Source: Lysobacter concretionis Ko07 = DSM 16239 (GTDB taxonomy: Bacteria > Pseudomonadota > Gammaproteobacteria > Xanthomonadales > Xanthomonadaceae). Taken from it: a DNA stretch of 64,000 bases. The stretch spans positions 62,001 to 126,000 of the forward strand of contig NZ_AVPS01000003.1 in assembly GCF_000768345.1 (NCBI RefSeq). Direction: 5' to 3'. A program made the position numbers and the translations under genes. Positions within the stretch are counted from its first letter, which is position 1. Every line of letters begins with the position of its first letter. This document shows, in pieces, positions 31,636-35,880 of this stretch. Under the pieces are notes generated by a model. The model saw only the letters and a program-made list of their open reading frames with translations. It was not told the origin of the DNA and did not search any database.

Positions 31636-31715
31636 GTCATCCCCGCGAAGGCGGGGATCCAGTGACTTCAAATTACTGAGCAACGTCCATGGATTCCCGC
31701 CTTCGCGGGAATGAC
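31636..31715. repeat. Inverted pair of GTCATCCCCGCGAA-type palindromes
   Basis: GTCATCCCCGCGAAGGCGGG at 31636 onward and its inverted partner (TGGATTCCCGCC...GGGAATGAC) ending at 31715 bracket about 28 bases. Same family as the array before pstB; fills the pstB-phoU gap. Confidence 0.8.
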
Positions 31716-31791
31716 GGCAATGGTCCAGGCCTTCCCCAATGAATGCCCAGCACCGCGCCATCGCTGGCGACACACTCCCAGGAACACCGAC

Positions 31792-32526
31792 ATGACACCG
31801 ATTCCCAGCGACCACATCGTCAAGAGCTACGACGAAGAACGGCACCGCCTGCTCGATGAAACCCTGCGCATGGGCGAGCTGGCCGCCACCCAGCTGGAAG
31901 CCGCGCTGGCCGTGGTCGCCGATCGCGACAACGTGGCCGCCGCGCGGATCGTGGCCGCGGACAAGGCGATCGACCGGCTGGAGCAGGACATCAGCCAGGA
32001 CGTCATGAAGCTCGCCCTGCGCGGGCCGATGGCGCGCGACCTGCGCGAGATCCTCGTCGCGATCCGCATCACCTCCGACATCGAACGCATCGGCGATTAC
32101 GCCGCCAACGTCGCCAAGCGCTCCACCGCGTTGAACCTCGCCCCGCCGCTGCCGCAGATCGGCGGCCTGCAGGCGATCGGGCGGTTGGCGGTCGCCCAGC
32201 TTCGCGACGTGCTGACGGCCTATCGCGACAGCGACATCGACGCCGCACGCCGCGTGCGCGACAGCGATGTCGCGATCGACACCGCCTACACCGCGCTGTT
32301 CCGCGAACTGCTGACCCACATGATGGAAGACCCGCGCGCGATCACGCCCTGCACGCACCTGCTGTTCATGGCCAAGAACATCGAACGCATCGGCGACCAC
32401 GCCACCAACATCGCCGAGAACGTCTGGTTCCTGGTGCACGGCGAGGACGACCTGCCGCCGCGCGAGAAGCGCGACAACAGCAGCACGCTCGCGCCGGACG
32501 CCGATACCGGAGCGCACCCGGACTGA
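31792..32526 (+). CDS. phoU: Phosphate-specific transport accessory protein PhoU
   Basis: 244 residues from the ATG at 31792. Two three-helix PhoU repeats contain ITSDIERIGDYAANVAKRS (about 80-100) and MAKNIERIGDHATNIAEN (about 190-207), the metal-binding E(R)xGD motifs. Mediates PstB-PhoR signalling to keep the Pho regulon off when phosphate is plentiful. The last codons run into a 14-base tandem repeat. Confidence 0.97.
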   Translation: MTPIPSDHIVKSYDEERHRLLDETLRMGELAATQLEAALAVVADRDNVAAARIVAADKAIDRLEQDISQDVMKLALRGPMARDLREILVAIRITSDIERIGDYAANVAKRSTALNLAPPLPQIGGLQAIGRLAVAQLRDVLTAYRDSDIDAARRVRDSDVAIDTAYTALFRELLTHMMEDPRAITPCTHLLFMAKNIERIGDHATNIAENVWFLVHGEDDLPPREKRDNSSTLAPDADTGAHPD

Positions 32527-32606
32527 TCCCTTCGGGCTGGTCCATTCGGGCTGATCCATTCAGGCTGTTCCATTCGGACTGGTCCATTCGGATTGATCCA
32601 GCCGCA
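32523..32606. repeat. 14-bp tandem repeat at the end of phoU
   Basis: Six imperfect copies in phase with a 14-base unit (CTGGTCCATTCGGG type) run from 32523 to 32606, starting over the phoU stop codon. No gene overlaps the remainder. Copy number may vary between strains. Confidence 0.85.
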
Positions 32607-32665
32607 CCCCAACCGCGCTAGGATTGCCGGCACTGCGGCCTTGCCGCGTCCGTCGGGAACACACC

Positions 32666-33151
32666 ATGTCGCACAAGTCGAACAAGCCCGTTTTCGCCGC
32701 CAGCGCCGCCCTCGCCGGCAGTCTGATCCTCGCCGGCTCCGCGTTTGCCGCCACGCCGCTGGCGCAGGGCTACATGCTCGGCGCGCAGGACGCCGCAGCG
32801 AGTGCCGAGGCCACCGCCGAGAAGACCGCCGAAGCCAGCTGCGGGGCGAAGCACGCCGCCGAAGGCCGCTGCGGCAGCGCCAACGCCGGTGCCGGCAAGG
32901 CCGCGCACGAGGGCAAGTGCGGTGAAGGCAAATGCGGCATGGCCATGATGGACACCGACCAGGACGGCAAGCTGTCGCCGGCCGAATTCGCCGCCGCCCA
33001 CGGTGGCGACAGCAGCCAGTTCGCCGCGCACGACGGCAACGGCGACGGCTTCATCGACGCGGATGAAATGGACGCCCACCACGCTGCCATGATGCCCGCC
33101 AAGACCGACATGGAAGGCAAGTGCGGCGAGGGCAAATGCGGCTCGATGTAA
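32666..33151 (+). CDS. Secreted RiPP metallophore precursor (HvfA/bufferin-like) with two EF hands
   Basis: 161 residues from the ATG at 32666. The signal peptide ends at AGSAFA (cleavage near 28). Six cysteines (59, 69, 85, 90, 153, 158) all sit in CG; five are EG(K/R)CG, arranged as a double [10 protein letters not shown] before and another at the C-terminus after the EF hands. The two EF-hand loops are [12 protein letters not shown] (96-107) and [12 protein letters not shown] (123-134), with Asp at positions 1, 3 (Asn in the second) and 5 and Glu at 12. EGKCG is the motif modified by DUF692/MNIO enzymes in HvfA-type copper-binding peptides (known from that family). The MNIO and DUF2063 genes follow at once. 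The modification itself is inferred. Confidence 0.85.
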
Positions 33152-33176
33152 GCGTCGCAACCGTCGTTTCGTTCCA

Positions 33177-34091
33177 ATGATTTCCTCGACCGCGCTCGGG
33201 CCCCATGCCGTCGGACCCCATGCCGTCGGACGGCGTGCCCTCGCACCCCACGCCGTCGGCCTGGGCCTGCGGCGCGGGTTGTTGCCGGAGTTGCGGGCAT
33301 CCACGGCCGGCTTCGATTTCCTCGAAGCCGCGCCGGAGAACTGGATCGGCGTCGGCGGCGCACTGGGCGAGGCCTTCGCCGAGCTCGCCGCACGCCACCC
33401 GATCGTCTGCCACGGCCTGTCGCTCTCGCTCGGCGGCCCCGGCCCGCTGGACGACACCTTCCTGGGCAAGCTGCGCCGCTTCCTCGACGCCCACCACTGC
33501 CCGATCTACAGCGAACACCTCAGCGCCTGCAGCGACGAGCAGGGCCAACTCTACGACCTGATGCCGCTGCCGTTCACCGAGGCCGCCGTCGAGCACGTCG
33601 CCGCGCGCATCCGCCGCGTCCAGGACGCGCTGGGCCGGCGCATCGCAGTAGAGAACATCTCCTACTACGCCACCCTGTCCGCGCCCGCCGCCATGCGCGA
33701 GATCGACTTCATCAACGCCGTGCTCGAGCGCGCCGACTGCGACCTGCTGCTGGACGTCAACAATCTCGTGGTCAACGCGACCAACCACGGCTACGACGCC
33801 CTCGACTTCCTGCACGCACTGCCCGGCGAACGCATCGCCTACCTGCATGTCGCCGGCCACTTCGACGAGGCGGCCGACCTCAAGATCGACACCCACGGCG
33901 CGCCGGTCAGCGACCCGGTGTGGGCACTGCTGGCACAGACCTACCGCGCATTCGGCCCGCGCCCGACGCTGCTGGAACGCGACTTCAACCTGCCGCCGCT
34001 GGACGAGTTGCTGGACGAACTGGATGTCGTGCGCCGGCATCTCGACCCGCATCTCGCAGAGCGGCATGGCCAGGCCTCCCGTGTCGCCTGA
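33177..34091 (+). CDS. DUF692 multinuclear non-haem iron oxidase (MNIO, BufB/HvfB-like)
   Basis: 304 residues, TIM-barrel DUF692 protein. Candidate metal ligands: His in [18 protein letters not shown], Glu in IAVENISYY, Asp/Asn in [12 protein letters not shown], His pair in [11 protein letters not shown], Glu in [10 protein letters not shown]. These follow the pattern of MNIOs that turn Cys of EGKCG peptides into heterocycles. The N-terminus contains an in-frame tandem repeat ([21 protein letters not shown]), so the true start may be internal. It starts 25 bases after the precursor and overlaps the partner gene. Confidence 0.88.
33200..33262 (+). repeat. 15-bp tandem repeat at the start of the DUF692 gene
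   Basis: Four imperfect copies of a unit containing CCCCAYGCCGTCGG, in frame with the coding sequence and encoding the repeated PHAVG. Length changes of whole units would keep the frame. Confidence 0.75.
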
Positions 34092-35016
34092 CAACGCCAG
34101 TACCGACACCGCAGGCGACCGCGCCGGGGAGGGCGGCAATCGTGCCGGCGTTGTGGTTGGTGCCGACCGCGGCGGGCCCGGCAACCCCGGGGCAGAACCC
34201 GGCACCGACGCCCAGCGCGCGCTCAGCGACTACATCCGCGATCCCGACCACGCGCCTGCGCCGGCCGGCATCGAAGCGCGCCGGCTGAAGGTCTACCGCG
34301 AGCTGTTCTTCAACAACCTGCAGTCGATGCTGGCCGGCAACTTCCCGGTGATCCACCGCATCCTCACCACGCCATCCGACGATGACCGCTGGACGCCCCT
34401 GATCCGCGATTTCTACCGCGAACATCCCTCGCGCACGCCGCTGTTCACCGAGCTGGCGCGCGAGTTCCTGCGCTACCTTCAGCACCGCGCCGACACCGCC
34501 CGCGGCGACCCGCCCTGGCTGCCGGAACTGGCCCATTACGAGTGGGTGGAACTGGCGCTGCAGATCAGCGAGAACGTCGCCGACGCGCCCGGGCAGACGC
34601 CCGGACCCACGCGCGCCGGCATCGTGGCGGGCGAACCCCTGACCCGCGTCGCACTGCGGCTTTCCGCGCTGGCGTGGCCGTTCGCCTACCACTGGCCGGT
34701 GCACCGTCTGGCCCCCGACCACCTGCCCGAATTCCCACCCGCAGAGCCCACGTTCCTGCTGCTGCAACGCGACGCCGCCGGCACAGTGCACTTCCAGCAA
34801 CTCAACGCACTGACCTTCCGTTTGCTGGACCGCATCGAACAGGCGCCCGGCCTGCTCGCGCACACCCTGCTGCACGAGCTGGCCGAAGAAGCACGCGCCT
34901 CATCGGTCGCCGCCTTCATCGATCAGGGCACTGCCATGCTGCAACAGCTGTGCGATGCGGGGGTCGTGATCGCGATGCCCGCCAGCCGCGACGAATCACC
35001 CGGGAACCGGCCGTAG
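34066..35016 (+). CDS. DUF2063 partner protein of the MNIO (BufC/HvfC-like)
   Basis: About 316 residues. The conserved DUF2063 N-terminal domain begins near residue 48: [20 protein letters not shown] then [24 protein letters not shown] and [12 protein letters not shown]; a C-terminal winged-helix-like half ends with [19 protein letters not shown]. In the HvfABC and bufferin systems this partner binds the precursor leader and presents it to the MNIO. The start is either ATG at 34066 (26-base overlap) or GTG at 34081; the first 45 residues are Gly/Ala-rich. Its TAG stop is supplied by the GTAG head of a REP element. Confidence 0.85.
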
Positions 35017-35103
35017 GAGCGAGGTGAGTCGCGAATGCACTGACGTCCGGCTTCGCCGTGCTGTCGCGACTCACCGGCGGAGGCATGCCTCCGCCACTCC
35101 TAC
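35013..35103. repeat. Composite GTAG-type REP ending the metallophore locus
   Basis: GTAGGAGCGAGGTGAGTCGC (35013) and an inverted CTCCTAC end (35103) bracket a TGCACTGACGTCCGGCTTCG segment also seen near 11345, and a palindrome GGCGGAGGCATGCCTCCGCC identical to one at 23379. The whole can fold into one long hairpin and may act as transcript 3' end. Confidence 0.8.
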
Positions 35104-35190
35104 AAAAGGCTGCTCTTGTCCCACGCAACTCCGTTTGCTCCCACCCGCAAAGCCACGGAGCCATCGCGGTCCTCTGCTACGCTTTCCGCC

Positions 35191-35880
35191 ATGACCAACG
35201 CCGCACCTCCTGCGTCCACTCCAGGCTCCCCCCTCGTACCCGCGGCCTCTCCACTGGCAACCCGTTTCCGCGGCTTCCTGCCGGTCGTGGTCGATGTGGA
35301 AACCGGCGGCTTCGACTGGAATCGCCACGCCCTGCTCGAAATCGCGGTGCTGCCGCTGGATGTCGATGAAAACGGCCTGCTGATCCCCGGCGAGACCACC
35401 AACGCCCACGTGGAGCCGGCGCCCGGGCTGGACATCGACCCCAAATCGCTGGAGATCACCGGCATCGTGCTGGGCCACCCGTTCCGCTTCGCAAAGGACG
35501 AACGCACGGCACTGGACCACGTGTTCGCCCCGGTGCGCGCGGCGTGCAAGAAGCACGGCTGCCAGCGCGCGATCCTGGTCGGCCACAACGCCCACTTCGA
35601 CCTCAACTTCCTCAACGCCGCCGTCGCCCGGGTCGGCCACAAGCGCAACCCGTTCCACCCCTTCAGTGTGTTCGACACCGTGACGCTTGCCGGGGTGGCA
35701 TACGGCCAGACCGTGCTCGCCCGCGCGGTGCAGGCGGCCGGCTTCGAGTGGGACGCCAACGAGGCCCACTCCGCGGTCTACGACACCGAGCGCACCGCGG
35801 AGCTGTTCTGCAAGATCGTCAACGCCTGGCCCGGCCCGATGGCCGGCGTCGCGCCGCTCGCGAAGCTGCCGCTGGCGTAA
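35191..35880 (+). CDS. rnt: Ribonuclease T
   Basis: 229 residues from the ATG at 35191. DEDDh exonuclease motifs: [12 protein letters not shown] (Exo I), [13 protein letters not shown] (Exo II) and [14 protein letters not shown] (Exo III with catalytic His). Trims 3' ends of tRNA and other stable RNAs. It has an N-terminal extension of about 25 residues before [11 protein letters not shown]. Preceded by REP repeats and no strong promoter pattern. Confidence 0.95.

Follow-up and report, generated by a model that had tools for sequence, protein, structure and literature searches.

A cassette of three genes located between phoU and rnt probably encodes a RiPP system of the HvfABC type, whose product would be a putative copper-binding exported peptide. 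The precursor of this peptide carries a pair of EF hands flanked on both sides by EGKCG core blocks, and the arrangement is conserved in relatives. The fusion of EF hands to such a precursor is already known as such, and it is the conserved two-sided layout that looks like the new element. The gene content of the cassette, its motifs, the two-sided layout and the conservation of the locus are established from the source locus and from loci sampled in the same family and beyond.

The three-gene cassette at the source locus

The features of the locus are collected in Table 1. Positions are those of the window, i.e. the whole stretch of 64,000 nucleotides that was analysed.

Table 1. Features of the cassette and its neighbours, with the basis of each assignment
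Feature	Position	Strand	Basis
phoU, conserved upstream neighbour	31711..32526	+	Pfam + NCBIfam + locus comparison
HvfA-type precursor, 161 aa	32666..33151	+	ORF reading, Pfam + NCBIfam profile matches
Sec-type signal of precursor	about residues 1-28	+	by inspection
Start of mature part, LxxGY-type motif	32750..32788	+	motif comparison among sampled precursors
N-side block: Cys59, EGRCG (Cys69), 10-residue block (Cys85, Cys90)	32840..32938	+	motif reading
EF-hand loop 1, residues 96-107	32951..32986	+	Pfam + motif reading
EF-hand loop 2, residues 123-134	33032..33067	+	Pfam + motif reading
C-side 10-residue block (Cys153, Cys158)	33113..33142	+	motif reading
HvfB-family MNIO (DUF692, PF05114)	33177..34091	+	Pfam + NCBIfam
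HvfC-family partner (DUF2063 + NGO1945_C)	34066..35016	+	Pfam + NCBIfam; start codon by reading
rnt (ribonuclease T), conserved downstream neighbour	35116..35880	+	NCBIfam + locus comparison

The precursor ORF begins with the ATG at 32666 and terminates with the stop codon at 33149–33151. A preliminary description of this DNA had reported a 161-residue protein with five EG(K/R)CG motifs and two intact EF-hand loops, followed by DUF692 and DUF2063 genes, and was right in both coordinates and content. Five of the six cysteines of the precursor lie within EG(K/R)CG motifs, one in EGRCG (Cys69) and four in EGKCG (Cys85, Cys90, Cys153 and Cys158). The sixth, Cys59, is located in the sequence EASCG outside these motifs, and had been missed. 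The precursor matches the NCBIfam model KCGExKCG_twice (NF050137) with 48.2 bits (cut-off 19.5, E 6e-13) and the Pfam model EF-hand_5 with a score of 36.2 (cut-off 25.9), so the motifs and the EF loops are beyond chance. EF-hand_1 (Pfam) is also above its cut-off, and the pair model EF-hand_7 (Pfam) scores 27.3, below its cut-off of 30. The HvfA equivalog NF050188 gives 23.4 bits, below its cut-off of 95, and judged by these profiles the precursor is of HvfA type and not HvfA proper.

The precursor is separated by 25 bp from the MNIO gene, the only MNIO of the source genome. Its product matches PF05114 (Pfam) at E 7e-100 and the HvfB-family model NF003818 with 407.1 bits (cut-off 360), and its N terminus is extended by about 26 aa that are rich in repeats. 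The partner matches HvfC (NF050145) with 274.7 bits (cut-off 142), together with the DUF2063 and NGO1945_C domains of Pfam; its likely ATG is that at 34066, giving an overlap of 26 bp with the end of the MNIO gene. The HvfB, HvfC and KCGExKCG_twice matches above cut-off bear out the earlier assignment to an MNIO RiPP operon of the HvfA/HvfB/HvfC kind, and the three genes are predicted with good confidence to form an HvfA-type (oxazolin/captophorin) operon. By the DUF2282 and BufB models the cassette does not belong to the bufferins (Buf1/Buf2, BufB): DUF2282 (Pfam) does not match the precursor and the BufB model NF050167 scores 270.4 against the MNIO, below 310. A scan of the locus for promoters and terminators gave zero hits, such a scan being little informative in GC-rich DNA.

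HvfX, a DoxX-like protein that is frequent but not universal in HvfA-type systems, has zero family matches in the source genome at E 0.001. No DoxX gene was found 3′ of the HvfC partner at the source locus, where rnt stands instead; the single DoxX-family match of the genome shares the contig with the cassette, at a distance of about 300 kb.

An AlphaFold2 model of the precursor has a mean pLDDT of 50, with 38 residues of the EF region at pLDDT 70–90 and the flanking core blocks below 50. The helix that would enter loop 1 is absent from the model at the place where the N-side block stands. The alignment used was shallow (three sequences), and therefore the model is taken as a hint only. Sequence matches of the precursor in the PDB are EF-hand proteins (E 0.0016 or weaker), and a Foldseek search with the low-confidence model (best E 0.022, none below 0.001) adds nothing beyond this. 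A match to XopAW (NCBIfam, 25.1 bits versus 120) was set aside as EF-hand similarity only. It is most improbable that the loops bind another metal (Mn, a lanthanide or Cu) in place of calcium: there is a weak similarity to lanmodulin (NCBIfam, 17.0 bits versus 135; PDB 6mi5, E 0.0026), but this falls far under the lanmodulin cut-off and is no better than the matches to calcium-binding proteins. Lanmodulin-like lanthanide binding was accordingly rejected as a candidate.

The two-sided layout and its distribution

A search with NF050137 across 198 genomes of the family gave matches in 116. Eighty-seven places were fetched from among the best listed matches and, with L001 and L032–L034 added, made up 91 loci, of which 88 yielded an ORF containing three motifs or more (none came from L105, L116 or L117). 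L055 is identical to L032 and was dropped, giving a final set of 87 precursors. An MNIO is encoded close by on the same strand for 83 of them; the loci of L041, L083, L092 and L115 lack one, and the MNIO tree has 83 rows.

The precursors adopt three layouts, which are termed EF-less (no EF hands), one-sided (the EF pair follows the last block) and two-sided (the EF pair lies between blocks). There are 34 EF-less, 18 one-sided and 35 two-sided precursors in the set, and these counts are not population frequencies because strong EGKCG matches are favoured in the sample and loops had to fit a pattern. The pattern was a regular expression, which scores degenerate loops as missing and recognises just one loop in six one-sided members and in L091. 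An EF fusion is present in 53 of the 87 sampled precursors. In the preliminary description it had been regarded as unusual and was the central surprise. It is widespread in the sample and was already known, because EF-hand fusions to EGKCG precursors are in print as Buf_EGKCG|EF-hand_5, with a role in copper and calcium proposed (PMC12452194). In contrast, the flanking of the EF pair by core blocks on both sides, also pointed out before, is a conserved arrangement. The EGKCG motifs are likewise kept beside the MNIO in relatives, so that the search of homologues speaks for the earlier reading and has not refuted it.

In 24 of the 35 two-sided precursors the end of the N-side block lies four residues ahead of loop 1. 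Seven more (L046, L080, L090, L091, L109, L112 and L121) have xxxCG at the same place, which reduces the exceptions to four. The starts of the two loops are separated by 27 residues in 30/35, and the C-side block starts five residues past loop 2 in 23/35; the corresponding distances in the source precursor are 4 (N gap), 27 (loop spacing) and 15 (C gap). Twenty additional two-sided ORFs, 12 of them found in the family and 8 beyond it, show an N gap of four in 17 cases. On alignment of the 35 two-sided regions, the loop residues and a histidine in the linker number among the positions that show little or no variation.

The two blocks differ in how well the motifs are kept. All 35 two-sided precursors have at least two motifs on the C side, compared with 26 on the N side, and three have no exact N-side motif, though the comparison is biased toward the C side by the definition of the type through its C-side motif. 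These figures, and one precursor of the source genus that has no N-side cysteine at all (L124, below), would fit a C-terminal block that is the sole working core beside a degenerating N-side block. This reading is somewhat unlikely, given that the N-side block is intact in most two-sided members and that one-sided precursors presumably work without any C-side block.

Beyond the family, profile searches gave matches in 141 of 299 genomes of the order and in 69 of 369 genomes of the class, many of them plain EF-hand proteins. A two-sided gene is present in 12 of the 31 loci fetched there, from six families (f2, f12, f54, f55, f91 and f144), and the other 19 have none; the C-side motifs of one outside gene (L157) are of EGSCG type. 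An MNIO is encoded within the fetched flanks of nine of the 12 genes, and elsewhere in the genome for the remaining three (G507, G471 and G611).

Ten genomes of the source genus were compared, and four of them contain an MNIO match. The HvfB-like MNIO loci of these four (the source locus, L123, L124 and L125) all encode EF loops and a C-terminal block. L123 and L033 encode the same precursor, L124 has zero cysteines before the EF pair, and L125 has one EGRCG and a change of Gly to Ala in loop 1. A second, weaker MNIO match in G109 (L126) is not accompanied by such a precursor. In the six genomes without an MNIO match phoU is followed directly by rnt. The cassette as a whole is therefore cleanly present or absent between phoU and rnt in this genus.

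Neighbouring genes and history of the EF pair

All 35 two-sided loci have phoU upstream. The rnt gene is located downstream in 33 of them, the other two (L036 and L118) lying on short stretches, and in 62 of the 87 sampled loci overall. The 34 EF-less loci are mixed, with both genes in 14, rnt alone in 15, phoU alone in one and neither in four, while all 18 one-sided loci lack both.

The family has an HvfX match above cut-off in 41/198 genomes. Its place was counted for 84 of the 87 loci (L055 standing for L032, and L001, L033 and L034 being excluded). HvfX is located 3′ of HvfC in 19/33 EF-less loci, with one more nearby on the opposite strand, and in 2/33 two-sided loci; in 15/18 one-sided loci it lies just upstream of the precursor. 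The contrast of layouts was drawn over 67 loci (35 two-sided and 32 EF-less; L034 and L041 excluded, L001 and L033 counted among those without HvfX), and HvfX is missing from 33/35 two-sided versus 13/32 EF-less loci. The gap between HvfC and rnt is shorter than 350 bp in 30/33 two-sided versus 10/29 EF-less loci, and room for HvfX is therefore lacking. The absence of a DoxX-like gene, recorded earlier at the source locus, is thus a trait of the two-sided layout. These two contrasts would be expected if the two-sided EF layout had taken over the task of HvfX. Such a replacement is very improbable, however: 13 EF-less loci also lack HvfX, and the 15 one-sided loci noted above hold the EF pair and HvfX together. 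Moreover the MNIO tree provides only six independent pairs on well supported branches, within which HvfX is mostly unchanged (median p 1), so the contrast may be inherited and a link to the layout is unproven.

The one-sided type occupies a single branch of the MNIO tree (support 81/89), and the two-sided and EF-less types are intermixed. Placing the EF-bearing rows in one clade was rejected (p-AU 4.7e-5), as was a single clade of two-sided rows (p-AU 1.6e-5), and with it, for the two-sided type, the confinement of the EF pair to a single MNIO clade. The presence of the EF pair switches at least nine times on the tree. Together with the rejection of one clade this means that the enzyme can do without an EF pair, and the pair is perhaps a dispensable add-on. 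Because the distance between block and loop is shared, a single origin with repeated loss appears to be a likelier history than many gains.

These shifts bear on the reading of the EF pair as a modular spacer or solubility element in which calcium has no role. EF-less precursors occupy the same site, and they carry more motifs (median 7 versus 5), so repeats and EF pair might be interchangeable filler. On the other hand distant lineages have kept both the positions of the loops and the distance on the N side. The ligand positions of the EF pair also have a dN/dS of 0.11 compared with 1.02 elsewhere in the pair (26 pairs), although this contrast is weak because the loops were chosen by pattern, many pairs are distant and the GC-biased codons distort synonymous change. 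On balance a plain spacer is unlikely.

Possible role of the EF pair and relation to known systems

The putative Sec signal of the precursor would double as a leader, by analogy with characterised relatives. In the cytoplasm the HvfB MNIO with its HvfC partner would oxidise EGKCG cysteines, turning them into 5-thiooxazoles able to bind copper; 5-thiooxazole chemistry is demonstrated for fontiphorin and the captophorins (PMC13097082). Formation of thiooxazoles is most likely in the C-terminal 10-residue block and probably occurs in the N-side block too. The modified product would then be exported to the periplasm and sequester copper there, again by analogy with characterised relatives.

The preliminary description had envisaged a leader-independent presentation of the core, and here the evidence points the other way. 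A Sec-type signal, as read by inspection, is kept, and so is the post-signal LxQGY motif, which the source precursor has in common with EF-less precursors; a motif of the LxxGY type is found at the start of the mature part in 34/34 EF-less, 34/35 two-sided and 14/18 one-sided precursors. HvfBC favours a precursor that carries the Sec signal, modification of HvfA being far weaker once the signal is removed (PMC13419390). As a partial counterweight, FonBC still modifies FonA in vitro when the peptide is cut down to two EGKCG repeats, one repeat being too few, and single changes to Ala before the FonA core are tolerated (PMC13097082).

The EF-hand pair could then be a small calcium-binding scaffold located between two core blocks. 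We infer that it would be open in the calcium-poor cytoplasm, where the cores could reach the enzyme and Sec, and would fold on periplasmic calcium, thereby setting how far apart the copper-binding ends lie. That calcium binding drives folding is put forward tentatively. The more elaborate form of this proposal, in which the EF pair is half complete, the helix entering loop 1 being replaced by a thiooxazole core, the calcium and copper sites are mechanically coupled in a single two-metal protein and HvfX becomes superfluous, is quite unlikely. A two-metal buffer, as put forward in the preliminary description, would be a hypothetical role. Holding the two blocks together cannot be essential, because L124 has no N-side cysteine and loop 1 of L125 is altered; the first of these weakens a two-block clasp as an essential feature.

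A different role was suggested by the authors of PMC12452194, by analogy with EfhP of Pseudomonas, namely calcium sensing. A sensor gating copper affinity or signalling would be in keeping with the two canonical loops, but the three-gene cassette contains zero signalling genes. A steady high calcium in the periplasm would fit a structural role better than sensing. The EF pair is thus improbable as a sensor.

Should the calcium-dependent scaffold prove correct, a domain held at constant spacing from the modified cysteines would be a simple answer to the problem of premature export; some mechanism must prevent export of the precursor before modification, as set out in the Discussion of PMC12452194. 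Nature provides matched controls: forms without the EF pair or without the N block occupy this site, and one-sided forms are found at other places. If calcium is irrelevant, a comparison of the layouts would still tell which of the core blocks and helper genes can be dispensed with.

Four known systems lie close to the cassette. The one-sided paralogues (e.g. L056–L059 and L107–L110) similarly have EGKCG blocks and then EF loops, with an adjoining MNIO in 15/18. They differ in that no block follows the EF pair, in a conserved C-tail, in a gap of seven residues, and in the setting of their loci and the single MNIO branch described above. Fontiphorin and the captophorins (FonABC, PMC13097082) share the EGKCG repeats together with MNIO-PME1 and belong to the 5-thiooxazole class, but the word EF-hand is absent from the main text of that paper. 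HvfABC of Haemophilus influenzae (PMC13419390) has in common the Sec signal, which in the source precursor is read by inspection, 10-residue repeats, an HvfB MNIO and an HvfC partner. There HvfA consists of a signal and three 11-residue motifs with no EF hands, its operon has HvfX, and the narrow HvfA model is the one that the source precursor fails.

The fourth system is that of the Buf_EGKCG|EF-hand_5 chimaeras of PMC12452194, the one paper of the literature searched (from 2022 on) in which MNIO and EF-hand are mentioned together. These chimaeras, the second type of Buf_EGKCG/oxazolin precursors, have a predicted N-terminal membrane or signal helix, EGKCG motifs, two EF-hand_5 domains as in the source precursor, and associated genes for an MNIO and DUF2063. 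The two-sided EGKCG layout was not found in this literature, as far as its available text goes, and the PMC12452194 set may contain it unstated. The EF hands described there are C-terminal to a short EGKCG domain, whereas in the precursor of the present locus a second block follows the EF pair.

Genomic setting of the cassette

The cassette of precursor, HvfB-family MNIO and HvfC-family partner occupies a recurrent position, with phoU and rnt flanking it in 33 of the 35 sampled two-sided loci, where EGKCG blocks lie on both sides of the EF pair. Ten genomes from the window's genus were compared, and six of them show a clean absence of the cassette at this site. The cassette may be transcribed by read-through from the pst-phoU operon, which would give it a possible link to phosphate limitation. 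Upstream of the precursor gene a 14-bp unit of the type CTGATCCATTCGGG is present in five tandem copies, a copy number above that of all of 100 shuffles.

Sequence features in and around the cassette
Feature	Window position	Location
phoU-rnt site	31711-35880	
14-bp tandem repeat	32523-32600	between phoU and precursor gene
LxxGY-type motif	32750-32788	precursor, after signal
MNIO N-terminal extension	33177-33260	start of MNIO gene
15-bp repeat	33196-33225	within MNIO N-terminal extension
Inverted repeat, 18-nt arms, 89% complementary	35023-35075	between HvfC and rnt

The MNIO and HvfX genes

The Pfam domain of the MNIO is preceded by a repeat-rich extension of ~26 residues. Alignments of this MNIO with its counterparts at three loci of the same genus, L123, L124 and L125, begin at residues 38, 22 and 10, respectively, of the window's MNIO.

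In one-sided loci, with blocks only before the EF pair, the gene for the DoxX-like HvfX lies immediately upstream of the precursor rather than after HvfC in 15 of 18 (for example L057, L075 and L107); the remaining three have no MNIO nearby. The one-sided EF-EGKCG genes of L083, L092 and L115, in which the first EF loop is degenerate, have no MNIO within the fetched 9 kb, and their genomes each encode two or three MNIOs at other places. The two-sided EF-EGKCG genes of L160, L162 and L163, from outside the family, have no MNIO within the fetched flanks, the MNIOs of these genomes being located elsewhere.

Conserved elements of the precursor

In two-sided proteins the linker joining the EF loops contains a near-invariant histidine (around AEFxAAH, residue 112 of the window precursor), and in many a second histidine immediately precedes the C block (alignment A2, of the 35 two-sided regions). 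Both might provide additional metal ligands. The LxxGY-type motif following the signal is found in all 34 EF-less, 34/35 two-sided and 14/18 one-sided precursors; it could be part of HvfC recognition, and similar motifs are also present outside the family.
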